Under the pieces are notes generated by a model, which worked only from the letters and a program-made list of their open reading frames with translations, searched no databases and had not been told where the DNA came from. From Planctomycetaceae bacterium (GTDB taxonomy: Bacteria > Planctomycetota > UBA8742 > UBA2392 > JABWBM01): a DNA stretch of 41,665 bases. Below are positions 8,560 to 29,356 of the stretch, one piece after another. Position 1 is the first letter of the stretch. The number at the start of each line of letters is the position of its first letter. The translations under genes and the position numbers were made by a program. The DNA is taken from the NCBI GenBank assembly GCA_013360495.1, contig JABWBM010000003.1, positions 1 to 41,665 on the forward strand. The letters are read 5' to 3'.

Positions 8560-9366
8560 TTATTGCACGGGCGAGGGCAGGATTTCGCCTGAGCGGGCGC
8601 GGCTGTCATAGTCGAGAGCCGGGGTTTCGAGAGCTTTGATCTGCTCCTCTTGCTCTGTGCGCTTGCGTTCCAGTTCCTTGCGGATGCGCTCGAGCGAGGG
8701 TTGGGGATCGATGCCAGCTGTTTGCTCAACCCGGCGTTTGTTGCGCTCGATCAGCCGCTGGTTGCGTTCGAGGCGTTCCACTTCGCGCAGGATAGTGTCG
8801 CGTTCGGTCTCGAACGCCTGCTGTTCCTTCTTGATGCTTTCAAGTTCCTTTTCCAGCGAAGCCACCTGCTTCTGCGCGGCCACCAGTTCCGCGTTCAGAT
8901 TCGAGTGCTGGGTAAGATATGTATCGCGCGTGCGGATGGCGCGGTCACGGAGCTTGCGTGCCTCGTCAAGGCCATAGACCGTGCCGCGGAAGGTGACGAT
9001 TCCCTCTACTCCGGCCTGTTCGATCAATGCGTCAAGCTCGGCGATATCCTTGGCGCAGAGCGCGATCACCGCGTCTTTGTGTTCCAGCTCGCGTTCAATG
9101 TACGACGCTTGGGTCTGCGCTTCCTTCAGCGTCGAGCGGACGTCGGCGATGCGTTTCGGATAGCTTTCCGCGAGGCTTTCAAGCTCGTCCTGCACATTTG
9201 CGCGCTCGCCGGTCAACTCATCGGCTTTTTGCTGGGCTGCCGTGCGCAACGATGTGGCGATGTTCTTCACCCGCTCGCGCCCGAGCACCAGCGTGGCGAG
9301 GAACACGACGAGCGCCGCGACGACGGCGATAACGACGACAGCTTTGATGATCTTGAAGAGAAACAT
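8560..9366 (-). CDS. Membrane-anchored coiled-coil protein of unknown function
   Basis: The 268-residue protein starts with one N-terminal membrane helix (residues about 4-29: [20 protein letters not shown]). From about residue 45 to 250 it is almost entirely Glu/Lys/Arg/Gln-rich heptad-like sequence, with [20 protein letters not shown] and [18 protein letters not shown] as examples. This predicts a long coiled coil. A short [21 protein letters not shown] segment interrupts it near residue 120. The architecture resembles anchored scaffold or chaperone-like proteins, but no named family is recognised. The start is firm: AGGAGGT lies 7 bp upstream of ATG 9366. It is divergent from the acyltransferase gene and ends at a clear terminator. 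Confidence 0.7.
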
Positions 9367-13477: not shown

Positions 13478-16400
13478 TTATTTTTCGTTGTTCTTCGCGG
13501 AGGACTCGGCCTGTTGTTGGAGCACAGTGTTCATTTGTTGCGACTCGGCGAGTGTGGCTTCCATGGCGGCGAATTGCCTTTCGAGGCGTTCTCGCTCTCG
13601 TTCGATGCGTTCGTTGATCGTCTCGATCTGTTCGTTCAGACGTTTGATACGTTCGTCGATATTCTCGGTGGCCTGATCGATCAAGCCTTCGGATTCGATG
13701 TATTCCTGCGCTAGATTGTCGATCCGACGCGCGACGCCCAATTCCGTGTTGAGTGAGATTTTCTTTGTCTCGAGGAAATCCACGCCGGATTGGGCGATGG
13801 TTGAGGTCAAGCCAAGCGAAAGCGCTGTTCCCGAATTGTTTTCGTCGCGAATGCTGAACGTTCCGGTGGTCGGTACCGTGTTGTCGGTGAAGATCAGGCG
13901 CCTGCCGTCGGCGGAAATTTCTGCCGTGATGCGCGCGTCGGCGTTGATCGCGTCGAGCAATTCGTCGAGTGTTGTATAACTCGAAACGTCGATCAGCAGA
14001 TCCGCCGAAGCGTCAGCGAAGGTGATGCGCAAGTCGGCGCCACTGTCCGACGCCTTGATGCCATCGCCGTTATTCCAGTTCTTGAATTTTGTGTCGGGTG
14101 TGATCTTGCCGCTGTTGGCGAAGATATCCTGTACTTCCTGCGAGCGGTTTTCGAGCGCTTCCAGCAGGATTTCGTTATCGATGGTCAATCGTCCGTCGTT
14201 GTCAATTTCAATGCCGATGGACGCAAGCGTCGAAGCGCCGAGAGGCAAGCCTTCTACGAGATCGATATAAGCCCGGATCAAGCTGAACTCGAGACCGCGT
14301 AGCGTATTGTCTCCGAGCAGTGGACCGCCTTCGAGGGTTTCGATATTGAAGTCGGTCAGCTCGTCGATCCGGTCCTTCATAGCGTTGAAGGTGTCCACCA
14401 ATTCGTTGACGTCGTTCGAAACGGCTTCAAGGTCGCGTGTGACGGTCACGTTGATGGGCTCGTCGGACACGCCGAGCAGGTCGAGCGTCACTCCTTCGAG
14501 CACCTTCTTAAACGTATTGGTGATGCTGCGGACAACAACAGGGTCGGCGCTGCCGGTGGAATTACCGTAGAGCATGATCGAGTCAGAGGCAACCGACGTC
14601 TGATCAAATCGGAAGGAGTCGATGTCCGTACGCACGTTGATGTCGTTGCGCACGCCTGGTTCGGTGGCGGTGAGCGAGAGACGGTAAGGATTGGCGCCTG
14701 ACCCGTCATCCACGATCGACGCGATCACATCCACTTCGAGCGCCTTGATCTTCTCGACGATTTTGTTGAGCGAATCGCCGGCGTCGACCGCGATGTCATA
14801 CTCGAGCCTGCGGTCGATGGTGGCGGCAAAATCGAAGGTGCCGCGCAGCCCGAGCGCTTTGGCGAATTTTCCGGCTGAATCGCGGAATGTCAACGGACTG
14901 GTGCCGCCGCTCGAATCGACGATACGCAAGCCGTCTCCGTATGGGCCGATGCTGACGGACAACGTTGGCAGCGTATTGAGCGCGTCGATAACGTCGCCAA
15001 CTGTCTCCGCAAGCGAGATGTCGATGCGCTGTTGCGATCCATCGGCCAGTGTGACATCTATGGATCCGGTCTGCGGCCCGAAGTCGAAGCCGAATTCTGT
15101 CAGTTTGCGGTTGCCGTGGAAGTGCTTGAAGTTCAGATTGCCCGCGTCGGCCAGACCGTCGGCGTGAACGCCAGCGAGGCCCATGGCGGCCGCGAGCGTC
15201 CCCACGGTATCGGTGATCGTCAAGGAGCCTGCGCCACCCGCCTTGTCGACGATCTCAATGCCCGTACCGGCCTTGTCGATGCGAGCAAGCACGTTCGCAG
15301 CGGGGCCGATAGGGTTATTGATCTGATCGAGGATTTCGTAAATGTCTTCCCGGCCGCTGAAACTCACGGTGGTGATGCCACCCATGGAGTCGGTGATATC
15401 GAAGGAGGATGCCGCCGCGAGTGTTCCGGGAAGTCCGGTTCCACTCACGCCGGCCAACGAACTGGTCAGAACCGAGTTAAGCGACGCGATCACCGGACGC
15501 CCGAGAAAGTCTCCGCCGCCCATATTGAGCAGCATGGCGCTGTCGATGCCAAGCGAGTCCATGGTCGCGGACAGGCCCGAGACAGTGATCGACGCGGGCA
15601 TGCCTGCATCGCTGAGCTTGATGCTCGTTCCGCTGAGCGATGCGGTGACGGTGCCAGCCTGGGCGTTGATCAGCGTGACGACGTCTCCCATGGTCTTGGC
15701 GTCAGTCAGGTCAACGTTGATGGCGGCGCCCGAGCCGGTAATGGTGAGGATGCCGAGCGTCGACATGCCGTCGCCGACGCCGCGCCCGTCGTTGAGCGAC
15801 GCGAGCGAAGTCTGAACGCCTATGCTGTTGATGCGCGTGCCAACGATCACGCCCATGGCGTTCGTGCCTTCGATCCCAAGGCTGGTGGCCGTCGAACCGA
15901 AGCCGACGTTCTCGACCTTGATCGTTCCGGCGCCACTGGCGTTTTCGATGACCAGACCCTGACCGAGAAGGCCTGAGCCGATCATGTCGTTGACGCGCGC
16001 CTCGACTTGAACTGTGCCGTTGCTATTGATCTTGTCGATCACGTCGTCGATGGTCACGACGTTGGTGAGGTCGATCACCGTGGACGTTCCGGTATCGTCA
16101 GTAATGCGGATCTTGCCGCGGTCGATGCCGGTCGAGCCATTGAGCGCGTCGAGGTCCGTGGGGCGGTACAGGCGGGCATTGCCGATTTCAACCGTCATCG
16201 TGCCCGGGGTGTTCGTCACTTTCGCCGAGGCAGTATTGAAAAATCCGTTAGACACATACTGAGATACGGACGCGAGCGAATGGGCGAAGAAGGAGAACGT
16301 TCCTTCCAGGCTGGTCGTCGTGCCTGTGGCCAGCAGTTTCGAGGCGTTCGAGCTCTGGATAATTGACGCGTTGAACGCCGTGCCGTTATGGAGGCGACGC

Positions 16401-16585
16401 GCGATTTCCTGCATGTTCGCAAGGGACGACTGGACGGCGAGGTAGCCTTCCTTCTTGTCGTCTTCCTTGTTGATGCGTTCTTGAACAGAATCAATGGCCT
16501 GCTGGCGCGCGGCGAGAATCGCCTGGATCAGAGCCTCGGAGTCGAGGCCTGACGCATTCCCAAGGATGCCCGAAATGCCAGCCAT
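13478..16585 (-). CDS. fliD: Flagellar hook-associated protein 2 (filament cap), unusually large
   Basis: FliD caps the flagellar filament and guides flagellin assembly outside the cell. The N-terminus (GISGILGNASGLDSEALIQA, then QERINKEDDKKEGYLAVQSS) is the FliD_N domain. The C-terminus has the long helix (IDERIKRLNEQIETINERIE, then RQFAAMEATLAESQQMN) of FliD_C. At 1,035 residues it is about twice the length of enterobacterial FliD. The excess is a series of flagellin-hook IN-type modules: TIDDVIDKIN, TMGDVVTLIN, DIYEILDQIN, TVGDVIDALN, SLNKIVEKIK and TLDELLDAIN. No other flagellar gene is in the window, so it lies outside the usual cluster. TAGGAT (minus strand, 16599-16594) ends 8 bp before the ATG. 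Confidence 0.9.
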   Translation of the reverse strand: MAGISGILGNASGLDSEALIQAILAARQQAIDSVQERINKEDDKKEGYLAVQSSLANMQEIARRLHNGTAFNASIIQSSNASKLLATGTTTSLEGTFSFFAHSLASVSQYVSNGFFNTASAKVTNTPGTMTVEIGNARLYRPTDLDALNGSTGIDRGKIRITDDTGTSTVIDLTNVVTIDDVIDKINSNGTVQVEARVNDMIGSGLLGQGLVIENASGAGTIKVENVGFGSTATSLGIEGTNAMGVIVGTRINSIGVQTSLASLNDGRGVGDGMSTLGILTITGSGAAINVDLTDAKTMGDVVTLINAQAGTVTASLSGTSIKLSDAGMPASITVSGLSATMDSLGIDSAMLLNMGGGDFLGRPVIASLNSVLTSSLAGVSGTGLPGTLAAASSFDITDSMGGITTVSFSGREDIYEILDQINNPIGPAANVLARIDKAGTGIEIVDKAGGAGSLTITDTVGTLAAAMGLAGVHADGLADAGNLNFKHFHGNRKLTEFGFDFGPQTGSIDVTLADGSQQRIDISLAETVGDVIDALNTLPTLSVSIGPYGDGLRIVDSSGGTSPLTFRDSAGKFAKALGLRGTFDFAATIDRRLEYDIAVDAGDSLNKIVEKIKALEVDVIASIVDDGSGANPYRLSLTATEPGVRNDINVRTDIDSFRFDQTSVASDSIMLYGNSTGSADPVVVRSITNTFKKVLEGVTLDLLGVSDEPINVTVTRDLEAVSNDVNELVDTFNAMKDRIDELTDFNIETLEGGPLLGDNTLRGLEFSLIRAYIDLVEGLPLGASTLASIGIEIDNDGRLTIDNEILLEALENRSQEVQDIFANSGKITPDTKFKNWNNGDGIKASDSGADLRITFADASADLLIDVSSYTTLDELLDAINADARITAEISADGRRLIFTDNTVPTTGTFSIRDENNSGTALSLGLTSTIAQSGVDFLETKKISLNTELGVARRIDNLAQEYIESEGLIDQATENIDERIKRLNEQIETINERIERERERLERQFAAMEATLAESQQMNTVLQQQAESSAKNNEK

Positions 16586-16637: not shown

Positions 16638-18041
16638 CTACAGAGCAATTCTGCGCCACCTTCCGCGCGTAAACCAAGCGACGTAAACCATTGCTAACAC
16701 AATATTTCCGCCACAAACGCAATACCACACCGCCTTCCGGTCGAGGCCCATGCCAACGACCAGAATTGCGGCTGCCGGAAGAATAAGCAAACCATAGACC
16801 AATCCATCGATAATTGCCGGAGCGCGGGTGCTTCCCGCCCCGTTGAGAGCGAGCGAAATCACCACTCCAACCCCCGCGAATGCATAGCTCAAACTGACGA
16901 TGCCGAGATACTCGACGCCGATCTCGATCACGCGAGGCTCGCCGGGAGCGAAAATGCCGACCAATGTTTCAGCCATCCCCTGCGCCACGCCGGTGACGAA
17001 AAGCAAGGTCATGAATGCGCACAGCGCCGCGATCCAGGCGGCATGCTGCGCGCGCCGAACCTTGCGCGCTCCGAGGTTTTGACCGACGTAGGTTGAAGCT
17101 GCGGCCCCCCAGCCCATGGCGATGAACATCGCGACCATATCGAAGCGGATGCCGAGACCAAAGGCGGCGACTTCTGACTGATCCTCCGGAGTGGTGAAGG
17201 TATGGTTCACCAGCGCCACCAGGCCGACGACCGCCAGTACGCGCACGATCATTTGCGCGGAATTCGGTATGCCGAGCGCTACAAGCTTGCGAAGCAACCC
17301 TCCGTCAATGTGCCACTCGCCGCGTTTCGGGAAAACCTGGAACCTCGAGCGTAGGCAGAGGATCAGCGCCAGCGCGCAGCCCACGAGTCGCGCCGCGATC
17401 GTCGCCCATCCGGCGCCCATCAACCCGAGTTCCGGCGCCCCCCAGAGCCCGTAAATCAGGATCGGATCCCAGATCACATTGAGCAGACTCGCCGTGATGA
17501 GGATAATCGTCGGCCCTCGGGCGTCGCCGGCGCCACGAAGGATCGACGTCAGTTGCAGCAGGACGATCATGGCGAAGGTTCCGGCGAACATCAGTTCGAG
17601 ATATTGCGCTGTCAGTTCGAGCACATTCCCGCGCGCGCCCATGGCATAGCCGATCTCGCGGGCGAAGACGGCTCCGCTTACCCCGAAGACAGCCGAGATG
17701 AGAAGCACCAGAACGATCGATTGGCCCGTGACGCGCCGCATGTCCGCTTCCCTGCCCGCCCCCTTGGCGCGGGCGATCATGGCGACAGTAGCGGTGGCGA
17801 TACCGTTGGCGAACACGACAACGATCATCAGCAACGGGTCGCAGTTGCCGACGGCGGCAAGCGGGTCGCGGGCATCGTCCATCCCGCCGATGAAAAATGC
17901 GTCCACAAGGTTGAACGAGCCGTGCAACAACATCGCCACGACCATGGGGAATCCGAAACGCGCCACCCCGCCGAAAAGCGGGCCGTCGACGACGCCGTTG
18001 GAGGCGATCATGACAGGTGTAGATGGAGCGGCCTTCTCCAC
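16638..18041 (-). CDS. MATE-family multidrug/toxin efflux transporter
   Basis: The 467-residue protein has about twelve hydrophobic helices in two related halves. FGFPMVVAMLLHGSFNLVDAFF in the first helix pair and the matching LGIPNSAQMIVRVLAVVGLV in the second half are typical of the MATE/NorM-MatE superfamily. Other landmarks are GAGDARGPTIILI and LNGAGSTRAPAIID at corresponding points. MATE proteins export organic cations or drugs using Na+ or H+ gradients, or flip lipid-linked molecules. The start is uncertain. GTG 18041 is preceded by TGATAAACC 6 bp upstream, as in other putative leaderless genes here; ATG 18011 is possible and would leave the first helix intact. It begins the minus-strand run ending in coaX and is divergent from the Ser/Thr kinase operon. 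Confidence 0.87.
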   Translation of the reverse strand: MEKAAPSTPVMIASNGVVDGPLFGGVARFGFPMVVAMLLHGSFNLVDAFFIGGMDDARDPLAAVGNCDPLLMIVVVFANGIATATVAMIARAKGAGREADMRRVTGQSIVLVLLISAVFGVSGAVFAREIGYAMGARGNVLELTAQYLELMFAGTFAMIVLLQLTSILRGAGDARGPTIILITASLLNVIWDPILIYGLWGAPELGLMGAGWATIAARLVGCALALILCLRSRFQVFPKRGEWHIDGGLLRKLVALGIPNSAQMIVRVLAVVGLVALVNHTFTTPEDQSEVAAFGLGIRFDMVAMFIAMGWGAAASTYVGQNLGARKVRRAQHAAWIAALCAFMTLLFVTGVAQGMAETLVGIFAPGEPRVIEIGVEYLGIVSLSYAFAGVGVVISLALNGAGSTRAPAIIDGLVYGLLILPAAAILVVGMGLDRKAVWYCVCGGNIVLAMVYVAWFTRGRWRRIAL

Positions 18042-18140: not shown

Positions 18141-18149
18141 TGCTAAACT
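18141..18149 (+). promoter_or_regulatory. Extended -10 promoter of the kinase operon
   Basis: TGCTAAACT (extended -10) lies 21 bp before GTG 18171, giving a leader of about 15 nt that contains GGAGGG at 18161-18166. No convincing -35 is present, as is common with extended -10 promoters. The same CTCTGCTAA core occurs at 31835-31843. Confidence 0.45.
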
Positions 18150-18170
18150 GCCGCTACCCCGGAGGGACTG

Positions 18171-20918
18171 GTGCCACACGCGGCTCACAAGCTCGAACCT
18201 GACCCGTCGGAGATCGCTCCCGGACGCGGTATCGGCCACTTCGTCATTCAGGAACGCATCGGCCGCGGCGGGATGGGCCACGTCTACAAAGTTCGCGACA
18301 AGGTGCTCGGACGCACTCTGGCGCTCAAGCTGCTTTCACCCATTCATGCCATGGATAGCGAACAGCGCGAGCGCTTCGATCGCGAGATCGTCACGCTCGC
18401 ACGCCTGAACCACCCGAACGTCGTCCCGGTCTATGAAGCGGGTGCCCACGAGGGGTGTCCATTTTATGTGATGGAGTTGATCGAGGGCGAAGACCTCGAC
18501 CGGCGCGTGATGCGTAATGGCGCGTTCGATGAACGCGAAGCGGCGCGTATTATCTTGCAGGTCGCCCAAGGTGTGTCGCACATGCACGAGCGCGACGTGA
18601 TTCACCGTGATATCAAACCCGCCAACATCTTGCTGCGCAAAGACGGCAGCGCGGCACTCACCGACTTCGGCCTTGCGCGCGGGATGAAGCCCGAGCGCAA
18701 CCTGACCCAGACCGGAATGGCAATCGGCACTCCCGCTTACATGTCGCCAGAGCAAGCCAAGGGCGATGTCGCGCTGATCGGACCCGCCACGGATATCTAT
18801 CAATTGGGGGCGACGCTTTACACGCTTGTTACGGGCCTCGAACCTTACAAGGACGTTCCCGCGCACAAGCAGATGATGGCGGTGGTGGAGGGCGCAGGTC
18901 CCGCCTTCGGCGTTGGCGCGGTGAGCGCTCCGCTCCGCGCGATCATCCGCAAGGCCATGGCCCGCAACATCCGCAAGCGCTACCTCACCGTGAAGGCATT
19001 CGCCGATGATATCGAGCGTTTCCTTGCCCATGAGTGGGTTCTGGCGCGCGGTCGCAATCCTGTTGGCCGCGCGCTCTATTGGTTGCGGCGCTATGCGGCA
19101 GCGGTCATAGTTGCCGCTGTCGGTATTGTCATCATCACGTCGGTGATCCTTGTTGGGCTGAACGATCCGGGATATGGGCAAGAGCCGCGTTACGGGGGAA
19201 AGAAGACCTTTCGCGCTGATGCGCCCGCGCCGGAGCTTGAACTTCTCGTTCACGGCGCGACGTCCACGATCACGACGGTGGGGCATACCGTTACGCGCGA
19301 CGCTGCGGAATCGCAAATTGAAATCCTTGCGAAACCCGGGACCACGGCGTTCGGCTGGGGCGACTATCAGGCGGTTGTCGAAGTGCGGGACATTGAACCG
19401 GCGAAAGCGGTGGTGCATTGCTTTGTCGGCGGCGCGCCGGATACGCCGCAATCGGGATTGCGCGTTACCGTCGGGCGCGGCCGGTTTGCGGTCACGGATA
19501 AGGGCTATGAATTGGTGAATCTTCCCGTGGACGACGGCGAGGGCGCGCTCAGACTGACGCTCAACCGTCGCGCGGAATCAATAGAGCTGACTCTCGTCCG
19601 CGGCAACGTCACGGCCGGACAGGCGGTTCTGCGGGATCATTTCCGTCCCGCCGCGAATGAATGCGCTCAAGGCTTTGGAATTGTCAGCGAGGCATCGAGG
19701 TTGACCCTTGGCGAAGTGAGCTATCAACAACTTCCCGAACAGGGGAGCCGCATCCATCTTTTGATGGTGTCGGGAGCGTGGAGCGAGGCCTTGATGCGCA
19801 TCGACGCGTTGCTTGACAACGGCAGCGGCGGCGACGATTTAAAGTTTGCGCGCGGCATCTGCCTTTTGCGCCTGGCCGAGGCGAGCCCAGACGACGATCA
19901 GGCGCGGAAATATTGCGGGGATGCGGTGGCTGCTTTTGACGAGACCAGCGCATCAGCCAACGACACCGGCTTTCACGCCATGCTGATGTTGCTCGACGCA
20001 CAGGTGCTACGCCGCATGCGAGGCTGGAGCGATACAGTGCTCGCACCGTCGCAACTGCGCGCGCTCTTCGGCGCGACGAGAGGTGACGACGGGCGCCGCG
20101 CCGAGGTGGTCTGTGCTTTGCGTGAGGCAATGGTGCGTTTCTCCTTGGCAGCCGGATTTGAGAAGGACGTCCGCGATCTTGCGCGCATCACGGTCGAAGA
20201 AAGCCAGTGGGAGCCGTCGTTATGTCTGCGCGCCTATGAAGACCTGCTCAACAATTCGCCGCCTGAACAACACATGGAAATTCTGGAAGAGATGGCGGGC
20301 AGGCCATCGCTGCGTCACGAACCTCTGCGCTGCGCGCTTCTGCTCGCCCCGCTGGTCGATCAGGCCGCGAGGGGGGATGCCGGCGCAAGCGCGCACAACG
20401 GTTGGGCTAATGCGGTTGAACTTGCTACCCATATTCTTGAGGAATGGACTGTTCCGGAAGACTGGCTGCTGACCGGCAATGAATTGCGGGCCCTGACCTC
20501 CATCGAGAGCGTTCCCTATATAGAAGCCATTGCACGCGGCAGCGAGGACGCGGGACGATATTACGTGTCGCTTTCAGCGAATATCGATTCGCTCGTCGCG
20601 CGCCATCCGGAAATCGCCGAATGGCAGTCATGGCTCGATGCCGTTCACAACGCATTGTTTGCGGAAGAGGCCCCTGATGGGATCGCCGCCTGCAAAGCGG
20701 GAGAGCTGATTTCCCTTCGTGAGGGTGTTCCCGGCGCGTTGCGGGGCCACGTCGACGGACAGGTTTGGCGGGCTATATTCACCGCTCGTTCGTATCATCT
20801 CGAAGGCAACCACGAAGACGCGCGCAAGGCCTGGAAGAGCCTCGGCGCGCGAACGGACATTCTTCCCTGGGCCAGAGACCTCGCGCGGCGAATGGAGTTC
20901 AGCATTGAAACACGGTGA
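18171..20918 (+). CDS. Transmembrane Ser/Thr protein kinase (PknB-type) with large extracytoplasmic domain
   Basis: Residues 25-285 form a complete Hanks-type kinase. The Gly loop is GRGGMGHVY (31-39), with catalytic K53, alpha-C E72, HRDIKPAN (D147, N152), DFG at D165 and an SPE in MSPEQAKG. A single membrane helix follows at about 308-330 (AAAVIVAAVGIVIITSVILV). The remaining 580 or so residues are outside the membrane: a beta-rich part (about 345-520), then an alpha-helical TPR-like part. All catalytic residues are present, so it should be active, presumably sensing an envelope signal. GTG 18171 is supported by GGAGGG at 4 bp. It heads an overlapping operon with the next three genes, whose products are candidate partners or substrates (inference). 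Confidence 0.92.
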   Translation: MPHAAHKLEPDPSEIAPGRGIGHFVIQERIGRGGMGHVYKVRDKVLGRTLALKLLSPIHAMDSEQRERFDREIVTLARLNHPNVVPVYEAGAHEGCPFYVMELIEGEDLDRRVMRNGAFDEREAARIILQVAQGVSHMHERDVIHRDIKPANILLRKDGSAALTDFGLARGMKPERNLTQTGMAIGTPAYMSPEQAKGDVALIGPATDIYQLGATLYTLVTGLEPYKDVPAHKQMMAVVEGAGPAFGVGAVSAPLRAIIRKAMARNIRKRYLTVKAFADDIERFLAHEWVLARGRNPVGRALYWLRRYAAAVIVAAVGIVIITSVILVGLNDPGYGQEPRYGGKKTFRADAPAPELELLVHGATSTITTVGHTVTRDAAESQIEILAKPGTTAFGWGDYQAVVEVRDIEPAKAVVHCFVGGAPDTPQSGLRVTVGRGRFAVTDKGYELVNLPVDDGEGALRLTLNRRAESIELTLVRGNVTAGQAVLRDHFRPAANECAQGFGIVSEASRLTLGEVSYQQLPEQGSRIHLLMVSGAWSEALMRIDALLDNGSGGDDLKFARGICLLRLAEASPDDDQARKYCGDAVAAFDETSASANDTGFHAMLMLLDAQVLRRMRGWSDTVLAPSQLRALFGATRGDDGRRAEVVCALREAMVRFSLAAGFEKDVRDLARITVEESQWEPSLCLRAYEDLLNNSPPEQHMEILEEMAGRPSLRHEPLRCALLLAPLVDQAARGDAGASAHNGWANAVELATHILEEWTVPEDWLLTGNELRALTSIESVPYIEAIARGSEDAGRYYVSLSANIDSLVARHPEIAEWQSWLDAVHNALFAEEAPDGIAACKAGELISLREGVPGALRGHVDGQVWRAIFTARSYHLEGNHEDARKAWKSLGARTDILPWARDLARRMEFSIETR

Positions 20919-21480
20919 ACCAGTGTCGCAGTTGCAAATGATCCTGCTCAGGGAGGAGGCGCCCGCACATCTCAAGGCGCTTTGCAGGGCTATGCGCCGC
21001 GACCTTGACGACGTGCTCGCCGAATTTGGCCTCACCCCGGTGGAGATCGATACCCCGCCGGCGCCGGGGATCGTCAACGCGGGCGAGGCGACACTCGTGC
21101 TGCTTGACGATACGTTCAACCCTGTCCCCGTGCTGATCGAGGGAATGCTCGAAGCGATGGAGGAGTTCGACGTAGTGCTCGGGCCGTCCTTCGACGGACG
21201 GGTCTACGGCGCGGGCTTCGCGTCGGTGGGGGTGGATGTCGCGCAAGAGATTCTCGCGAACATGCCGCACGGAACGATCGATTCGCATCGTGAAATTATC
21301 GGGAAGCGGGGACTGCGAGCCTTTTGGCACGCGCCTTGGTACCGTGGCTGGGATTCCTCGACGCTGAAGTTCGCGCTTGCCCATATGCGCGCGCTCGAAG
21401 CAAGCGAAGATCCCGACTTCACGGCGATCCGCACGTTAAAGGAATTGGCGACGCTGGACACCGGACGGGAACAGGCATGA
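20905..21480 (+). CDS. DUF2064-type glycosyltransferase-like protein, degenerate
   Basis: About 191 residues resemble the DUF2064 / rSAM-selenodomain-associated transferase 1 family. ATLVLLDDTFNPVPVLIEGM stands where family members have the GSDxP motif, and EEFDVVLGPSFDGRVYGAGF matches the VLGPxxDGGYYLIG motif. The usual N-terminal nucleotide-binding segment (FxKxPxPGxVKTRL) is missing, and GSD and DGGYY are altered, so catalysis is doubtful; it may be a non-catalytic relative. The start is ambiguous: TTG 20905 has TGGAG 6 bp upstream and overlaps the kinase stop by 14 bp; GTG 20923 and ATG 20938 are in frame. Its stop overlaps the next gene as ATGA. Remote family match, moderate confidence. 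Confidence 0.55.
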   Translation: MKHGEPVSQLQMILLREEAPAHLKALCRAMRRDLDDVLAEFGLTPVEIDTPPAPGIVNAGEATLVLLDDTFNPVPVLIEGMLEAMEEFDVVLGPSFDGRVYGAGFASVGVDVAQEILANMPHGTIDSHREIIGKRGLRAFWHAPWYRGWDSSTLKFALAHMRALEASEDPDFTAIRTLKELATLDTGREQA

Positions 21481-24176
21481 GACAAAACGACCCGGAGCCG
21501 AAGAATGACCGTCAACAACCCGGCCAAGGCGCCGGCCCCTCGTTTGTTTTCGCTTCATTCATTTTTTTGGGCGTAATTTTTGTCATATCGATCGCCATGT
21601 TCTCGCTCGGCGGTGTCGTGGCCCAGAACTCTTTGCAACCCGACCCAAACCAGCAAAACCCTGACGCCTGGATCGACGACCTCAAGAAAAATACTCAGGA
21701 GCTTCCCGAGCAGGATCTCGCGCGCGCCCAAGCGCTCATCAAGCAGCTTGGGTCGTCCGTCTACCGTGAGAGAGAGCAGGCCACGAGGGAGTTGTTGCTT
21801 CTCCCGCGCCGCGTGGTCGCGCACCTTGCCGATCATCGCAAGCATGCCTCGCCGGAGGTGCGCCATCGCGCCTCGTGGGTCGTCGAGCAGTTTAGAATTT
21901 CGGGCGAAATGCCGCCTTTCGACAGCTATATCGGGCGCGTCGCTGGGCTTGACCAGCAGGTGGTGCGCGAACATCTCGAACCGAAACGCAATGCCATCGA
22001 CGAACTGCTGAACCGTCTACCGGCGGGCGAGATGACGGCCGAGCCGGGAATTTGGGCCCGTCTCTATCCTGCCTGCACGACGGCTGAGCAGCGCTCGAAA
22101 GTGACAGCCATGTTCGCCGCTACGCTTGGCTCTGACCCCACCGTCAAACTCTATCAGGCGCTCCTCGACAGTTATCCACAGCTTTCCCCCGCGCGCTCTG
22201 CGTTGATCGACAGCGTCGGCGACAGCGCTCCGCTCGAACTGGTGCTCGAGCTGGCGCAGGCCAGCGCGGGCGAGCAGGACCTCGGCGTGCGCAGCGCGCG
22301 TGATCGCGTGTTGCGCCGCTTGCGAAAAACGCTCGACGCCGCATCGATGCTCGAGCGTTTCAGCGCGGCTCCCGACGCTTCGATGCGCGTGCTGCTGCTC
22401 GAGCTGGTCAACCTCGCCGAAGCTCCGCCGGAACAGCGCGCCGCTTGGCTGGCGCTTGGAGAGCAGCAGACCGATCCCAAGGTGCGCGACAAATTTGTCG
22501 GTATGGCCGCGCGCGAGGGCCTGCACGAAGTGCTCGACTCGCCCTTGATGGCATCCGGTGGACGCGCGCGTTTCACGATGCTCGCGGCTGTCGGCCGCGA
22601 TGAACATTGGCGCCGTGAGCTCGCCCGCGTTGACAACGATGTGACGCAGGCGGTGACGTGGCTCCCGTGGAGCGGCCTTCCCGTGGCGTCGCAACGTGAC
22701 CTACTTGTGGGGTTACTGGAAAGCGCGAACGGCGACATCCGTCGCGCTGCCATTGGCATGCTTGCCGGGTATGGCGATCCGGCGCTGGTGGATCTAGCGC
22801 TTGGCTGGCTTGCAACGGCTCCGGACCGCACGCCGGTAGCCCTTGAACTACTGGTCGCGCACGCATGGCTTTTGCCCGAGCGCGCGCCTGACGCGCTCAA
22901 ACAACCATGGTTTTCGGGTGCCAGCGCCAGCGCGAAAGCCGCCATCGCCCGCTGGTATGACACCCCGGAATCCGATGCGCTTCTTGAAAAACTTGCCCAC
23001 AGCGACGATCCGGATGCCGCAGGCATTGCCGTGCGCGAAGTGGTTCTGCGGGCCAACACCTTCTTCGCGCGCCAGCTTGCGGTCGCGCACTGCATGAGGC
23101 CCTTCCCCCTGACCGCTTCGACGATCGCGGCGCTCGAACCGACCCCTGAGTCGGCCTTCGCCACACTCAAGCGCATCGTCGATCAGCGCCAGCCGAAAAT
23201 GCTGAGTCAGGAGCGTTCGTCGCCCGACTATCTGCTCGCCCTTTCGCTCGCACTGCACAACGATGACGCGCTGCGTGAGGCGCTCAAGCATGGAACCCTC
23301 GCCGGCGCGCAGGACCGCGCGGCGCTGCTCGCGCTCTACCGCGACGAAGAAGGAGCCAAGGCGCGCGCCGACGCGTTGAAAAGCTACTCCCAAGGACTCC
23401 TGCATCTTACCCCGCTGCTCGTTCATCTCGGTGACGAAGCGACAGTCATTGCCGCGTTGAAGACAGCCGCGGAGTCGAGATCGATTCCTGCCTCGATCGA
23501 CATCGTCGCGCTCACCCGGGCGCTCGCATCGGACGCTGCCCAGCCATCGATGCGGAGCCTGATCGATATCTGCACCAAACCAAACGATGACAAGCTTTTT
23601 GCCGCGTGCGCGCTGCCGCTCTCGCTCAATATCACGCGCGAGCCCTACCTCGACTTGCTCGCCTCCATCGCCATCCGGCGCGACACCGAATCGTTTCGCC
23701 GTTTGCTGGTGATGGCTGCCGCGGGGTCTCCCGCGCTCGACACGGCATGGATCAACGCGCGCCGCGAAGCGTGGGAGTCAAGCAAGCGGGAGAGCACAGA
23801 CCGCGTGTTCGCCCTGCTTGATGCCATCGCCGAGCGCAGCGAGAGTGCGTTGTTGGGTTTCGCTCTTGACGCCATGCGGGAAGGCGGAGACACGAATATG
23901 CGCCTTCCGTCCCTGTTCGCGGCCGCAAGGCTTGGCTCGCGTCATGCGTTGATCGCGGCCGTGAACGAAACGCTTGGCGTTGAATCCGCTCTGGGCGAGC
24001 CCTTGCGCTTTCCGTCGTCGCCGAACGCCGCTGCCTTCCGGCTGGGTGATTATTGCGCCGGTATTCCCGGCAGTGTCAAGGGAATGGACCGGCGGATCGC
24101 ATTCTGGCAATCGACGCGCCATTTGTGGGCATGGGACGTGACGAGTGGAATGTTTACGCGGAGAACCGGGCCATGA
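21477..24176 (+). CDS. Membrane-anchored HEAT-like repeat protein
   Basis: The 899-residue protein begins with a Gln/Pro/Asp-rich cytoplasmic tail (about 1-20) and a single membrane helix (PSFVFASFIFLGVIFVISIA). Everything after that looks like alpha-alpha repeats rich in Ala, Leu, Arg and Glu. HEAT-like examples are YREREQATRELLLLPRRVVA with SPEVRHRASWVVEQF, and GDIRRAAIGMLAGYGDPALV. No enzymatic motif is visible. The topology places the solenoid outside the membrane, on the same side as the kinase sensor domain, so it may be a binding scaffold. Both ends overlap neighbours by ATGA (21477-21480 and 24173-24176), indicating coupled translation. Confidence 0.75.
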   Translation: MRQNDPEPKNDRQQPGQGAGPSFVFASFIFLGVIFVISIAMFSLGGVVAQNSLQPDPNQQNPDAWIDDLKKNTQELPEQDLARAQALIKQLGSSVYREREQATRELLLLPRRVVAHLADHRKHASPEVRHRASWVVEQFRISGEMPPFDSYIGRVAGLDQQVVREHLEPKRNAIDELLNRLPAGEMTAEPGIWARLYPACTTAEQRSKVTAMFAATLGSDPTVKLYQALLDSYPQLSPARSALIDSVGDSAPLELVLELAQASAGEQDLGVRSARDRVLRRLRKTLDAASMLERFSAAPDASMRVLLLELVNLAEAPPEQRAAWLALGEQQTDPKVRDKFVGMAAREGLHEVLDSPLMASGGRARFTMLAAVGRDEHWRRELARVDNDVTQAVTWLPWSGLPVASQRDLLVGLLESANGDIRRAAIGMLAGYGDPALVDLALGWLATAPDRTPVALELLVAHAWLLPERAPDALKQPWFSGASASAKAAIARWYDTPESDALLEKLAHSDDPDAAGIAVREVVLRANTFFARQLAVAHCMRPFPLTASTIAALEPTPESAFATLKRIVDQRQPKMLSQERSSPDYLLALSLALHNDDALREALKHGTLAGAQDRAALLALYRDEEGAKARADALKSYSQGLLHLTPLLVHLGDEATVIAALKTAAESRSIPASIDIVALTRALASDAAQPSMRSLIDICTKPNDDKLFAACALPLSLNITREPYLDLLASIAIRRDTESFRRLLVMAAAGSPALDTAWINARREAWESSKRESTDRVFALLDAIAERSESALLGFALDAMREGGDTNMRLPSLFAAARLGSRHALIAAVNETLGVESALGEPLRFPSSPNAAAFRLGDYCAGIPGSVKGMDRRIAFWQSTRHLWAWDVTSGMFTRRTGP

Positions 24177-26884
24177 CGCGATACGCGCGCGGAGTCGTAA
24201 GCATCGTGTGCTTGCTCATCGCGGGCGGAACGCTCTGCCGCGCCGATGATCCAAGCCATGGCAACCGCGACGCAGAGGCCGAGGCGCTCATGCTGCGCCG
24301 TATCGCCGCGTACTTTCACGGCAACGACGACGACCCGGCATCGATCATGCGTTGCTGGTCGCGCGAGATGGAACAGCGTGAAGCCGTCAGATTCGACACT
24401 CTTTACCGTCTGCGTGTCGCTACTGCGGCGCTCGACAGCGGCGAGGAAGCCGCGCAGAAACTCGCAACCGAGAGCCTTGACTATCCAACCGCCATGCCGG
24501 TGCGCGGCCAGGGCTCCGAGTTGCATACACCCTACGCCGCCATAGGAACGCTCTGGAACGCTTTGATGGCGAACCGAAGGCCGGGGCTTGCGGCGTCAGT
24601 GGCCGATTCGCTCATGACGAAATTTCCGGCGTCACGCTACGCCAAGCGCCTTAAAGCGGTTGCGTTAATGATCGACGGCAAGCTCGCGCAAGCGGGCGAG
24701 CTGCTTGCCGATTTACTCCGTGGCGAATCGAAGCAGTTTGCGTGGGAATACACATACACTTTTCAGGAGAAGGACGCCGCGCAGGAATTTTGGCGTTCGC
24801 CCTTGAGTCTCAACGACGTTCCATTTTGTCAGGAAGTCAGGGGAGTTCCGCTTGCCTATACCGTCGCCCATGACCTGCCGGAAGTTGAGTTGTGGGCGCG
24901 TCTCGCCGCGGCGGACAGTGCGGCGTTAACTGGCGCGGGACAAGATAAGGCCTGGACATATCTGAAGGCGAGGGCGCAATTCGAACAGGCTGCCGCGACC
25001 CATAACGCTGAAGCCTGCCGTACCGCGCTTGCCTCGATTTCGGGCGCGCTTGGCACTGGCGAGAATCCTATCTATCAGTTCCTCGATTTTCGCGCCGATG
25101 TCGCGACCGGTAACGCCAAGGGCGCGTTGGGCAAGTTCGGCCCGATCAGTTCCCGGCTGTGGCCATCGCCGTCAGATTCGTTGGTGGTCGCGCGTCAGGG
25201 CATGAGCCCGGCGGCCCATGGATTGGTGTACTGGGCGCTTGCTCTTACACGCAACGTCCCCGTGGCTCAAGTGGCAGAACATCTGTCCTACATTCCGCAG
25301 TACTTCTTTCCCATGGGGAATCCAAACGACCCCCGCGCCGTTGATTTACAACGTGACGCCTTCATGGCGATGTACGCCCTCGAACTCGAGCGTACCGCGC
25401 CAGAACGCTTTACCGAACTACTGCCCGCGCTGCAGGAACATCTGCAGATGAAAGTGAGCGGCGCTGACACCGCGAGTCAATATCAGTTCTTTGTGCTCGA
25501 GCATATCTGCTCGAACGCCGTGGACCTCGACAAGGCAAAACAAGTGTTCGAGATATGTTGCCAGTGGGTGGCGCACCTCTTCGGACCGGAGGGGCTCGAC
25601 ATCCCCGCCAGCGACGAAGCGCGCGGTTGGTTACACCTCGTCCGTCTCGATCGTCAATCGCGCGTTATCCCGGGGCCGCGTACGATGCCGATGGGCTGGC
25701 TTTTTCCGAACCGGCCGGACGCGTTGAAGTGCGCAGCGCTCGCGGCCGAGCGGCTGGTCACGCTGAGCGCGAACGCTGGCAAGGACGAGCTCGCCAAGTT
25801 CAAGACGGATATCGAGGAACAGGCGGCGAAATCCTTCCTCCCGTTGATGGAAAAGCGCGAAGCTGAAAATGCGAACAACTACGCTGGCCAGCTTCAGCGT
25901 CTCGCCTCACTGCTGGAGCAGTTCGAGATTCTGCGTGATGCTGTCAGTCCCGCCGTCGCCTCCGAGGTTGGCGAACCGGACTTCAAGAATATTCCGAAGG
26001 GGTGGAACCGCCGCTCGCTGCGCGCCGCGCTTAGCGCTAGCTCCAACGCCGGGAACCGGGTCGCGTTCGTGCGCAACGCCGCCGATACTCTTCCGGCGAA
26101 GGGGCAGCTCATGCCCCTCGAAGCGCTTGTCTACACCTTCGCGCGCGAGTTTATACGCGACGACGCCACGCGCGAGGCGGCCGGAAAGCCCGCGCTTGAC
26201 AAGCTTGACGACGCAAAGCTGCGCCTGCCTTTGCTCGGCCCAGCGCTCTTGCGTTCTTTCGAATCGCTGGTTCCGGCATTCACGAAGGATGAGGCTCTCG
26301 CGCGCAGCGTGATCGCAGCACTGATGGAAGACGAACTGAAACGTGTAACGAAATCGGCGTTGCAGGGTACCGGGAATCCAGACAATTCGCGTTCGCCCGA
26401 GCGTGTGCTGTACTCCAACGTCACACCTGAGACGCATTGGAGCTTTCCACGTAACTGCATCGATATTCTTGGCGCGGAGCACCGGGCGGTGACGCTGTAT
26501 CAGCGTTCGATAGCCGAGCAGCAGGAGTCCCTGACTGCGGATGTCTTACTCAGCGCAAACGGGCTGAACGCGATCGCGTGGAACCTTCACGGCGCGTGGA
26601 CCGGCGAGGGCCGTATCCAGCGCATGGCGATGTTCGGCCTCGCGTTCGGGGCGGATGTTTTCTCCATTCCACAGGCGCAATTCGCAGCCCCTTCAGGCAG
26701 CGCGAACATCGAGAATGTCGCCCATACGCTCGACACGGCGGCGTGGGGGCACTTTGCGTCGGGGGACGTGGACAGGGCCGTCGAAGTGGAGAAGTATGCC
26801 CGCGCGCTCAACCCGGGCGACCGGAACTATGATCTCACGCTGGCGGAGTTCGAGAAGGAGCGCAAGCCGAAAGACTCCGGGTAG
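24173..26884 (+). CDS. Secreted helical-repeat (TPR-like) protein of unknown function
   Basis: The 903-residue protein has a signal peptide (RYARGVVSIVCLLIAGGT, probable cleavage after LCRA), then predominantly helical sequence. Some segments look TPR-like, such as RLKAVALMIDGKLAQAGELL early on and the final GDVDRAVEVEKYARALNPGD, which is a good TPR consensus. No catalytic motif is recognised. It is the last gene of the kinase operon, joined to the HEAT-like gene by an ATGA overlap, and its predicted periplasmic location matches that gene's solenoid and the kinase's outer domain. The three could form one envelope complex, which is inference from operon structure and topology alone. No terminator is visible before the convergent gene ending at 26912. 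Confidence 0.68.
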   Translation: MTRYARGVVSIVCLLIAGGTLCRADDPSHGNRDAEAEALMLRRIAAYFHGNDDDPASIMRCWSREMEQREAVRFDTLYRLRVATAALDSGEEAAQKLATESLDYPTAMPVRGQGSELHTPYAAIGTLWNALMANRRPGLAASVADSLMTKFPASRYAKRLKAVALMIDGKLAQAGELLADLLRGESKQFAWEYTYTFQEKDAAQEFWRSPLSLNDVPFCQEVRGVPLAYTVAHDLPEVELWARLAAADSAALTGAGQDKAWTYLKARAQFEQAAATHNAEACRTALASISGALGTGENPIYQFLDFRADVATGNAKGALGKFGPISSRLWPSPSDSLVVARQGMSPAAHGLVYWALALTRNVPVAQVAEHLSYIPQYFFPMGNPNDPRAVDLQRDAFMAMYALELERTAPERFTELLPALQEHLQMKVSGADTASQYQFFVLEHICSNAVDLDKAKQVFEICCQWVAHLFGPEGLDIPASDEARGWLHLVRLDRQSRVIPGPRTMPMGWLFPNRPDALKCAALAAERLVTLSANAGKDELAKFKTDIEEQAAKSFLPLMEKREAENANNYAGQLQRLASLLEQFEILRDAVSPAVASEVGEPDFKNIPKGWNRRSLRAALSASSNAGNRVAFVRNAADTLPAKGQLMPLEALVYTFAREFIRDDATREAAGKPALDKLDDAKLRLPLLGPALLRSFESLVPAFTKDEALARSVIAALMEDELKRVTKSALQGTGNPDNSRSPERVLYSNVTPETHWSFPRNCIDILGAEHRAVTLYQRSIAEQQESLTADVLLSANGLNAIAWNLHGAWTGEGRIQRMAMFGLAFGADVFSIPQAQFAAPSGSANIENVAHTLDTAAWGHFASGDVDRAVEVEKYARALNPGDRNYDLTLAEFEKERKPKDSG

Positions 26885-26911: not shown

Positions 26912-27343
26912 TCAGTTCTTTTTCGCCGCTTCCTGATCCTTCTTGACCGCTTCGAGGTGTTCTTTCTCCACTTCCGCGCGCATGGCGGCATAGAGCTTCG
27001 CGAAATGTTTCGCGTCCGCCTTGCGCTGGGCTTCGATCGCTTTGTCGAAGTCGGCTTGATCTTGAAAATCGCCTTTCTTCGCGGCGGCGTCCCAGGCGTC
27101 CTTGTCGTTGAACTTGTGCTGGTCGCGCAACGCGCGCTGGCGGAGTTCGTACCAGTGTTTCAAGACCTTGCGTGCGCGCTCCACCAGTTCGGTGCTTTCT
27201 TTGGGCGCGGCTGGCTTGGCCTTCTCCTTGGCGGAATCTGCTTTTGCCGGTTCTTCCTTCTTTGCGCCTTCCTGCGCGAAGATCACCGGCCAGGTGGCCA
27301 GCGCCGCGATCAGCACGATGATTCCGAGACATCCACCACGCAT
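26912..27343 (-). CDS. Small secreted Lys/Ala/Glu-rich protein
   Basis: The 143-residue protein has a signal peptide (GGCLGIIVLIAALATWPVIFA, probable cleavage before QEG). A charged low-complexity stretch (KKEEPAKADSAKEKAKPAAP) follows, then a long amphipathic helical region (ELVERARKVLKHWYELRQRA onward to AAMRAEVEKEHLEAVKKDQE). No known family is recognised; the tail could be a coiled coil. GGGAG lies about 6 bp upstream of ATG 27343, and a perfect TATAAT precedes it. The promoter overlaps the stop codon of the upstream C39 gene, so it can be transcribed separately. Confidence 0.65.
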   Translation of the reverse strand: MRGGCLGIIVLIAALATWPVIFAQEGAKKEEPAKADSAKEKAKPAAPKESTELVERARKVLKHWYELRQRALRDQHKFNDKDAWDAAAKKGDFQDQADFDKAIEAQRKADAKHFAKLYAAMRAEVEKEHLEAVKKDQEAAKKN

Positions 27344-27366: not shown

Positions 27367-27372
27367 ATTATA
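27367..27372 (-). promoter_or_regulatory. Consensus -10 (TATAAT) of the small secreted protein gene
   Basis: On the minus strand TATAAT reads 27372-27367, overlapping the TAA stop of the gene ending at 27368. It lies 23 bp before ATG 27343, leaving room for the SD. No clear -35 is seen. Confidence 0.5.
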
Positions 27373-29356
27373 GCTTCGCGGTGGCCGTTTTTCCGGCTTG
27401 CTTGAGGATATTCTCCGCCACAGGATTGCTCGGCGCCAGTTCCAAGGCAGCCTTCGCGTGATAGGCCGCGCGCCGCAAATCCCCGGAGTCGAGATAGTCT
27501 TTCGCAAGCCGGAGTCTTGGCCTGATGTCGCCCGGGCGGTCGTCGAGAGCGTGCATCAACTCTGCCCGTCCGCGCTTGCGGTCGCCCGCGGAAAACGCGA
27601 TTTCGCCGCGCAGATAGTGGAGCGTCGGGTCGTCCGGGAACAAGCGCACGGCCCGCGCGTAGAAATCGAGCGCGCCGGCGTAGTCTTTTTGAATCATCGC
27701 CACGTCGCCCGCGTAGCGCAGCGACCAGTAGCTGTGTTCCTCAAGCTCGAGCGCTTCGTCGATCAATTCCTTCGCGCGGTCGAAATCCCGGAGCATGATG
27801 GCGATTTCTATCAGCGTGCGTCGCGCGGAGCTATATTCCGGTTCGCGTTTGAGCAGTTCCTCAAGCGCGTTGACGGCGTCGTCGAAGTGGCCTTCCTCGC
27901 GGTGCTTGAGCGCCTCGAGCCAGTTCTGCACCAGTTCCTGGCCCTCCTTCTCCACGAGGTCGAGCATTCCCCCCTGACGCTCTGGCACGGTGATTACCAC
28001 GAGGTTGTCCGTGAACGCCCACGAGCGCTTGAATTCCGAATAGGTGATTTCGATGGGATCATGGAAGAGCGGATCCTGCGCGATGACCACACCCATCTGG
28101 TCGTCGTAGCCGATCAGCGCGATGCAGTGGCCGTCGACGCCCGAATACTCGCCGACAACGACGGGGATGTCATTGTTGAGGATTTCCTTGACCTGCCCGA
28201 GGTCGCTCAGGAACGCGAAGGTGCGAAAACCCTTGATGCGGCCAAGGAAAGTAACGAGGTCGTTCCAGCGTGTGCCTTCGGTGAACACTTCCTCGGCGAT
28301 GCGGTCTTGCGTCTGCTCGCTGCCGAAATAGGCGAGCACGTTGGCGAGCGTGTTCGGCGCGCAGTAGTTGCGTTTCTGGAGTTTGCGCGGAAAGTTGGCG
28401 ATGGTGTGCTTGTTGCGCGCGTCGGAACTGAGGGCCTTGAGCCGCTCGCGCGCCTCGCGCCGGTGGGTCGAGCGCGGATGACGTTGCAACAGCGCCTCAA
28501 GCTCGGCGATGGCGTTTTTCGTTCGGCCCGCGCCGTAGAAGCAGCGCGCGAAACTTAAACGCGTCGAGTCGGCATTCGCTCCAGCCGGTGAGATCTCCAG
28601 ACAGCGGCGATGGAAGGCTGCCGATTCGCGGTACTCGCCGATCGAGCTATGCACCTCGGCCATCAGCGCCATCAGTTTCAAAGAATGCGGCGAGTTCTCG
28701 ATGCCATAGGCAAGGATCTCCTTGGCCTCCTGACTACGGCCACCGATATGGAAGAGATTGGCCAGCAGTTCGAAGGCGTCGACACAACTGGTGTCGATCT
28801 GCAGGGCGCGGGCGAGCTGGGCCTGCGCTTCCTCGGATGCGCCGCCGATGGTGAGGTAGCGCGCCTCGTCGGCGAGGAGCTGCGCCGAGATCAGGCCGAA
28901 GCTCGCGGCTTTCCTGATTGCCTCCTCGGCGGACTTCATGCGCTCGAGTCCCGCGAAGCAGACGCACAGACCGGCCCAGGCATGAGTGCGGTAGGGGATC
29001 AGCGCGTGCTCGTCCTCGACCACGTCGAGGAAGGCGTCCACGGCGAGTTCGGTTCGCCCGGCTTCGAGCCAGACGCGGCCGATTTCATACATGCTTTCCG
29101 TATGGAAGGGTTTGTGTTGCGCTGCGCGGCGGAACCACTGGCGCGCTTCCTTGAAGCGCTCGCGCCAGCGTGCGATTTTGCCCGCGAGTAACTGGGCTTC
29201 CGGCAATTCCATCATGCCGCTGAAGTGTTTTTTCCCGTGTTCGATGGCGGCGAGCGCGCCCAGGATATTGCGTTCGCTGACGTAGTCGCGCACCCGTTCG
29301 ATGCAGCCTTCGGGGCCGGTGAACTCGAATGTCTGCGTCTCCGGCTGGGTCTTCAT
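27368..29356 (-). CDS. C39-like papain-fold peptidase flanked by TPR arrays
   Basis: The 662-residue protein has three parts. Residues about 20-300 are TPR repeats (FKEARQWFRRAAQHKPFHTE, and ...EAKEILAYGIENSP). Residues about 315-455 are a C39-type peptidase domain with nucleophile C332 in KRNYCAPNTLANVLAYFG, H410 in DGHCIALIGYDD and an Asp in IAQDPLFHDP. Residues about 470-660 are more TPRs (YAGALDFYARAVRLFPDDPT). C39 domains cleave double-glycine leaders in exporters; here there is no signal peptide, membrane helix or ABC domain, so the enzyme is predicted cytosolic, with its substrate set by the TPRs. ATG 29356 is chosen because the extra upstream frame to 29416 looks non-coding. Confidence 0.8.
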   Translation of the reverse strand: MKTQPETQTFEFTGPEGCIERVRDYVSERNILGALAAIEHGKKHFSGMMELPEAQLLAGKIARWRERFKEARQWFRRAAQHKPFHTESMYEIGRVWLEAGRTELAVDAFLDVVEDEHALIPYRTHAWAGLCVCFAGLERMKSAEEAIRKAASFGLISAQLLADEARYLTIGGASEEAQAQLARALQIDTSCVDAFELLANLFHIGGRSQEAKEILAYGIENSPHSLKLMALMAEVHSSIGEYRESAAFHRRCLEISPAGANADSTRLSFARCFYGAGRTKNAIAELEALLQRHPRSTHRREARERLKALSSDARNKHTIANFPRKLQKRNYCAPNTLANVLAYFGSEQTQDRIAEEVFTEGTRWNDLVTFLGRIKGFRTFAFLSDLGQVKEILNNDIPVVVGEYSGVDGHCIALIGYDDQMGVVIAQDPLFHDPIEITYSEFKRSWAFTDNLVVITVPERQGGMLDLVEKEGQELVQNWLEALKHREEGHFDDAVNALEELLKREPEYSSARRTLIEIAIMLRDFDRAKELIDEALELEEHSYWSLRYAGDVAMIQKDYAGALDFYARAVRLFPDDPTLHYLRGEIAFSAGDRKRGRAELMHALDDRPGDIRPRLRLAKDYLDSGDLRRAAYHAKAALELAPSNPVAENILKQAGKTATAKL

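Follow-up and report, generated by a model that had tools for sequence, protein, structure and literature searches.

The window analysed here, a stretch of 41,665 nucleotides, is an entire contig (C222) of a 3.4 Mb genome that is 92% complete and distributed over 256 contigs. Four consecutive genes are located on its forward strand. Gene 1 (18171-20918, 915 aa, GTG start) encodes a Hanks-type Ser/Thr kinase, gene 2 (20905-21480, 191 aa, TTG start) a relative of the DUF2064/TIGR04282-type GT-A proteins, gene 3 (21477-24176, 899 aa, ATG start) an exported HEAT-repeat protein, and gene 4 (24173-26884, 903 aa, ATG start) an exported all-alpha protein. An earlier note on this DNA had described four co-directional genes on this strand, and the reading of the open reading frames confirmed them at 18171-26884. 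However, the start at 18141 given there lies upstream of the coding region, as the frame of gene 1 contains a TAA at 18144 and its first start is the GTG at 18171, with GGAGG just 5' of it. The set is bordered on the left by a divergent MATE transporter gene (16638-18041, reverse strand) and on the right by a convergent gene of 143 aa (26912-27343, reverse strand). Thus, the co-directional run consists of exactly four genes.

All three junctions had been taken to overlap. The second and third are true ATGA overlaps in the sequence, in which the stop of gene 2 meets the start of gene 3 (21477..21480, forward strand) and the stop of gene 3 meets the start of gene 4 (24173..24176, forward strand). 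The 14 bp overlap at the first junction, however, depends on the use of TTG 20905 as the start of gene 2. GGAG is found just upstream of this TTG, and the alternative in-frame starts, GTG 20923 and ATG 20938, would give no overlap with gene 1. In relatives with an adjacent kinase and GT-A gene, the two are separated by gaps of 3-126 bp. No sigma-70-type promoter was found, which is uninformative here, and the promoter and terminator scans performed no better than shuffles.

The codon use or composition of gene 3 is unusual, and antisense ORFs within it (21555-23426, reverse strand) scored above gene 3 itself on a simple codon model. Since gene 3 was missed by simple codon-based gene calling, its reality rests on homology and not on codon statistics. 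Elsewhere in the window, a very long FliD gene (13478-16585, reverse strand) was observed, whose product has 1035 aa and includes a flagellin IN motif, and no further flagellar genes were identified among the window proteins scanned.

Kinase and its outer part

The four proteins were compared with those of a second family in the same planctomycete order, represented by 16 genomes in a class of 20 genomes. Every named relative in the public collection is a metagenome-assembled member of the Planctomycetota. The kinase domain occupies residues ~25-272 of the gene 1 product (Pkinase PF00069, E 5.6e-49), and the VAIK-type Lys, HRDxKxxN and DFG are all conserved in the orthologue alignment. The protein thus has the Pkinase fold, beta3 Lys, HRD, DFG and activation segment of a Hanks-type kinase. 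Assignment to the Stk1/PASTA kinases (NF033483) was rejected, as the Pfam scan showed no PASTA and the score was 253 bits, where the cut-off is 450. A single TM helix at residues ~308-331 is followed by an outer part at residues ~333-915, which bears out the roughly 580 outer residues claimed previously. The orthologue profile matched the window kinase with an E of 1.5e-106, and the match extended to residue 622; the identity between the window kinase and those of the relatives was ~30%. The genome encodes ~21 kinases, of which only this one matches the orthologous outer-domain profile.

The AlphaFold2 model of the outer part was of low confidence overall (mean pLDDT 54.7), particularly beyond residue 377 in outer-part numbering, and contained strands at 34-181 of the outer part with pLDDT mostly 70-85 from residue 60. 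The beta-sandwich, encoded at 19188..19750 (forward strand), retrieved CBM66, legume lectins and galectins in Foldseek with a probability of 1.00; the TM-scores on the query were low because a single domain of the outer part matches. 3keto-disac_hyd (PF06439) was found in one of 12 kinase orthologues (E 0.0021), and no PF06439/DUF1080 match was obtained in the Pfam scan of the window kinase itself. The remaining region (19751..20915, forward strand) was modelled as all-helical and matched TPR chains weakly in profile comparison (best E 0.008). In these models, the outer part of the kinase is predicted to be a ConA/lectin-like beta-sandwich joined to TPR-like helices.

GT-A relative

The gene 2 product, which has no export signal, did not reach the threshold for DUF2064 on its own (E 0.026). 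Its orthologues matched DUF2064 with an E of 1.4e-10 and TIGR04282 with an E of 2.7e-9; 15 of the 16 alignment members matched both families at E <= 0.01, and the orthologue profile matched the gene 2 ORF of the window with an E of 2.3e-14. Moreover, the group matched PDB 3cgx (E 8.9e-9). The window protein may accordingly be placed in TIGR04282/DUF2064 through its orthologues only, as it falls alone below the thresholds of both libraries. The N-terminal GxxKTRL stretch was absent in all five module proteins aligned; it was present, or replaced by a near variant, in all four canonical planctomycete members. The description of this protein as degenerate was therefore fair. The relatives' proteins keep the SDxPxLP and GPxxDGxxY core, and the window protein reads DDTFNPVP at the SDxPxLP core.

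Exported proteins

Gene 3 is similar to the relatives' gene by local statistics. The match of its product to HEAT_2 was below the cut-off (E 7e-5), and comparison with the relatives gave an E of 2.4e-8 over residues 75-487 in tblastn, a probability of 96-97% in HHalign against their alignment and a local profile Z of 8.9, with a C-terminal end motif common to both. The identity of about 20% between the window and relatives' HEAT proteins comes from a forced multiple alignment and lies at shuffle level; the homology rests on the local statistics instead. When the genome collection was scanned with the window HEAT protein, no relative was found. The N-terminus carries a signal peptide or anchor at ~23-45, with a possible cleavage site, VVA|QN, after the hydrophobic stretch, and in most relatives the N-terminus reads as a cleavable signal peptide. 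Hence, the earlier description as a single-pass protein is uncertain.

The gene 4 product carries an SPase I-type signal (CRA|DD), and an export signal was predicted for this protein in both families, in agreement with the claim that it is secreted. It corresponds to the TPR protein of the relatives in position, length, export signal and the 4-bp ATGA junction with the HEAT gene, and its composition is helix-forming like that of the counterparts by a crude propensity count. The sequences themselves could not be matched. No family was found in the domain-library scans, and comparison with the relatives' last protein gave 0.1-0.2% in HHalign, a profile Z of -0.4 and conserved columns at shuffle level. 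A search against 149 relatives yielded one marginal match in another genome (E 8e-4, 72 residues), and a search of the 20 genomes of the class at E <= 10 yielded none outside its own genome. An identity of ~20% in forced alignment did not exceed the shuffle level and was given no weight.

The relatives' last protein was predicted with confidence as a TPR superhelix (pLDDT 85.7, pTM 0.84), and the shapes nearest to this model include the scaffolds Ski3, Ctr9 and Naa15. A scan of the genome collection with this protein found 13 loci, all in Planctomycetota. Among the members of the related family, divergence of the HEAT protein proceeds at almost the same rate as that of the last protein, so that a loss of signal at the distance of the window would not be surprising. 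The window's last protein may be a diverged counterpart, or a replacement by an unrelated exported helical protein.

Conservation in the related family

The earlier note had proposed a search of related genomes for conserved gene order. The same order was found in this second family, and the scattering that would have spoken against a module was not seen there. The matches were identified with profiles for the outer part of the kinase and for the GT-A, HEAT and last proteins, each giving one full-length match per genome. The whole set is present in 15 of the 16 genomes, and the sixteenth (G010, 84% complete) is without all four; no genome of the family was found with only some of the genes. 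Eight genomes (G001, G003, G005, G006, G009, G011, G013 and G015) have the genes consecutively and in the order of the window. G002 has one inserted gene between the kinase and GT-A genes (L046, 7020-8612, forward strand), encoding an exported protein of 530 aa. In G016 the module is cut by a contig end and continues on a second contig, and in five genomes (G014, G004, G007, G008 and G012) it is split in two pieces, all of which are kept. Among the other members of the class, no profile matches were obtained except a partial outer-domain match in G019 (E 2.3e-7) and short HEAT N-terminal matches. In G014 the HEAT gene lies in two overlapping frames (L116, 7210-8109 and 7719-10004, forward strand), a frameshift that is either real or due to assembly.

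The features of the window recur as well. A co-directional run of exactly four genes was found in G001, G005, G006, G009, G013 and G015, the start for the 4-bp overlap between the HEAT and last genes is available in 11 of 11 relatives checked and in the window, and genes 3 and 4 carry export signals in both families. Judged from sequence comparison, the kinase including its outer domain, the GT-A protein and the HEAT protein are homologous across the families, with the last protein as the exception. The earlier note had regarded lineage-specific solenoids that do not co-occur with the kinase as evidence against the module. Co-occurrence with the kinase was found for the HEAT protein. For the last protein, only its position could be compared because the window version has no detectable sequence similarity to that of the relatives.

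Most flanking genes differ between the two families. However, orthologues of the window genes at 8560-9366 and 27368-29356 occur near module pieces in G001, G004, G008 and G012, and these common flanking genes leave room for simple inheritance of the locus order. The latter gene (reverse strand) encodes a TPR protein whose middle part holds a C39-like peptidase domain, and its close orthologues in G008 and G012 (E about 1e-123) are near the kinase/GT-A half. Divergent to the kinase gene, one to three genes for exported porin-like proteins are present on L040, L041, L042, L043, L045 and L048, and also on L145 and L146; the two that were tested are Porin_O_P (PF07396), and such genes still adjoin the kinase in G014 and G004, where it is separate from the other three genes. 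In several genomes, genes resembling exonuclease VII subunits are found just downstream of the module or of the split HEAT/last half (L040, L043, L045, L049, L118 and L119), and none was seen in the window.

Co-retention alone is weak evidence, since the whole set belongs to the core genes of a small, vertically related clade. The strength of the case is that order, overlaps and boundaries were kept at about 20-30% protein identity, the lower value being that of the forced alignment, while most flanks changed. The recurrence of the order and junctions in a second family is more than chance.

Proposed function and alternatives

The best explanation, which we hold tentatively and at somewhat under even confidence, is that the four genes form one co-transcribed, order-specific envelope signalling module of planctomycetes, comprising a lectin-type receptor kinase, two solenoids and a cytoplasmic partner. 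The kinase would span the inner membrane; its active Hanks-type domain would face the cytoplasm, and a lectin-like sandwich followed by a TPR-like solenoid would lie outside. The HEAT and TPR-type proteins would be exported and made together through translational coupling, and would bind each other and the outer solenoid of the kinase, serving in the periplasm as scaffold or sensing subunits. The activity of the kinase would then change with a carbohydrate or glycan-linked state of the envelope, which the lectin-like domain and the solenoids would read. The cytoplasmic GT-A-derived protein, which is encoded next to the kinase, may be its partner or substrate and is probably no longer a normal transferase. 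The complex, its ligand, the direction of the signal and the GT-A role are what we infer in this scheme.

It is also conceivable, although unlikely, that one transcript, shared for ease of expression, carries two side-by-side units without physical signalling through each other, namely a regulatory kinase/GT-A pair and an exported HEAT/last-protein scaffold pair for envelope assembly. Two of the five splits (G008 and G012) fall exactly between the GT-A and HEAT genes, leaving the HEAT and last genes still adjacent to each other; moreover, these two genes are never apart where both are found, and their 4-bp overlap start is always available. However, it is the kinase gene alone that lies apart in G014, G004 and G007, where the GT-A gene is still grouped with the HEAT and last genes. 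The intact four-gene order is also the arrangement seen most often in the related family, and it is that of the window.

Slightly less likely still is an arrangement in which the kinase senses carbohydrate by its lectin-like domain alone, the solenoids are co-made envelope machinery, for example for surface-glycan or protein-layer assembly, and the GT-A protein keeps a residual nucleotide-sugar or regulatory role. The ConA/CBM66-like outer domain, the core motifs kept in the relatives' GT-A proteins and the envelope context of several related-family kinases, which are divergent from Porin_O_P genes, would agree with it. Nevertheless, no genes for glycan synthesis adjoin the module consistently, the GT-A protein is without its KTRL stretch and has an altered core in the window, and a cytoplasmic kinase domain cannot reach periplasmic proteins. 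Simple inheritance of four unrelated core genes at a slowly rearranging locus, with an unrelated replacement as the window's last gene, is improbable: the clade is small, some neighbourhood is common to both families and no sequence match links the window's last protein to that of the relatives, but the order, overlaps and boundaries of the four genes were kept while most flanks were not, the divergence is high (~30% identity for the kinase and, in forced alignment, ~20% for the HEAT protein), and both families have a length-matched, exported, helix-rich protein with the same 4-bp overlap in last position.

The preferred reading, a single signalling module, has a bolder form. The four genes could encode a new bacterial receptor-kinase complex, in which a lectin-like/TPR kinase cannot sense without its scaffolds, a HEAT and a TPR alpha-solenoid that are both giant and exported, and uses a catalytically retired GT-A protein as cytoplasmic effector; we consider this a speculative proposal that is probably not correct in full. 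In Planctomycetota, membrane kinases with extensive outer domains are numerous. The defined, conserved set described here links a kinase of this kind to putative partners, two of them exported and one cytoplasmic, which makes sensing by such kinases directly testable.

Comparison with known systems

In the PknG-GlnX-GlnH system of Actinobacteria, the exported GlnH controls the TPR-bearing kinase PknG via the membrane protein GlnX (PMC9769921, PMC6069109). The comparison with the present module is of the works-like kind only, in that an exported binding protein acts through a membrane protein on a TPR-bearing Ser/Thr kinase. That system differs in its separate membrane protein, soluble kinase and solute-binding-protein sensor, and has neither HEAT or large TPR exported proteins nor a GT-A relative. 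The Stk1/PknB PASTA kinases share with the window kinase a Hanks-type catalytic domain, a single TM helix and an outer sensor; however, the window kinase has no PASTA repeat and matches in the kinase domain only. In the case of the GT-A protein, the relatives' proteins have the SDxPxLP and GPxxDGxY core region in common with the TIGR04282/DUF2064 family (PDB 3cgx), whereas the GxxKTRL stretch of the canonical members is missing in all module proteins aligned.

The closest known kinases are the single-span Ser/Thr kinases of Planctomycetota with periplasmic DUF1080 or TPR, which have already been described (PMC11032199). They resemble the window kinase in the cytoplasmic kinase, the one TM helix and the phylum, and may resemble it in the periplasmic DUF1080-like (3-keto-disaccharide hydrolase/ConA-like) or TPR region. 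The terms "operon" and "gene order" are absent from that paper. The kinase architecture alone is already known, and of the earlier claim of a new module it is the four-gene set that appears to be undescribed, as no system of such composition was found in the literature searched (open-licence papers). Unlike the described kinases, the window kinase apparently combines both outer types in one protein, with weak likeness to DUF1080, and its gene is the first of a conserved four-gene unit that also encodes two exported solenoids and a GT-A relative.
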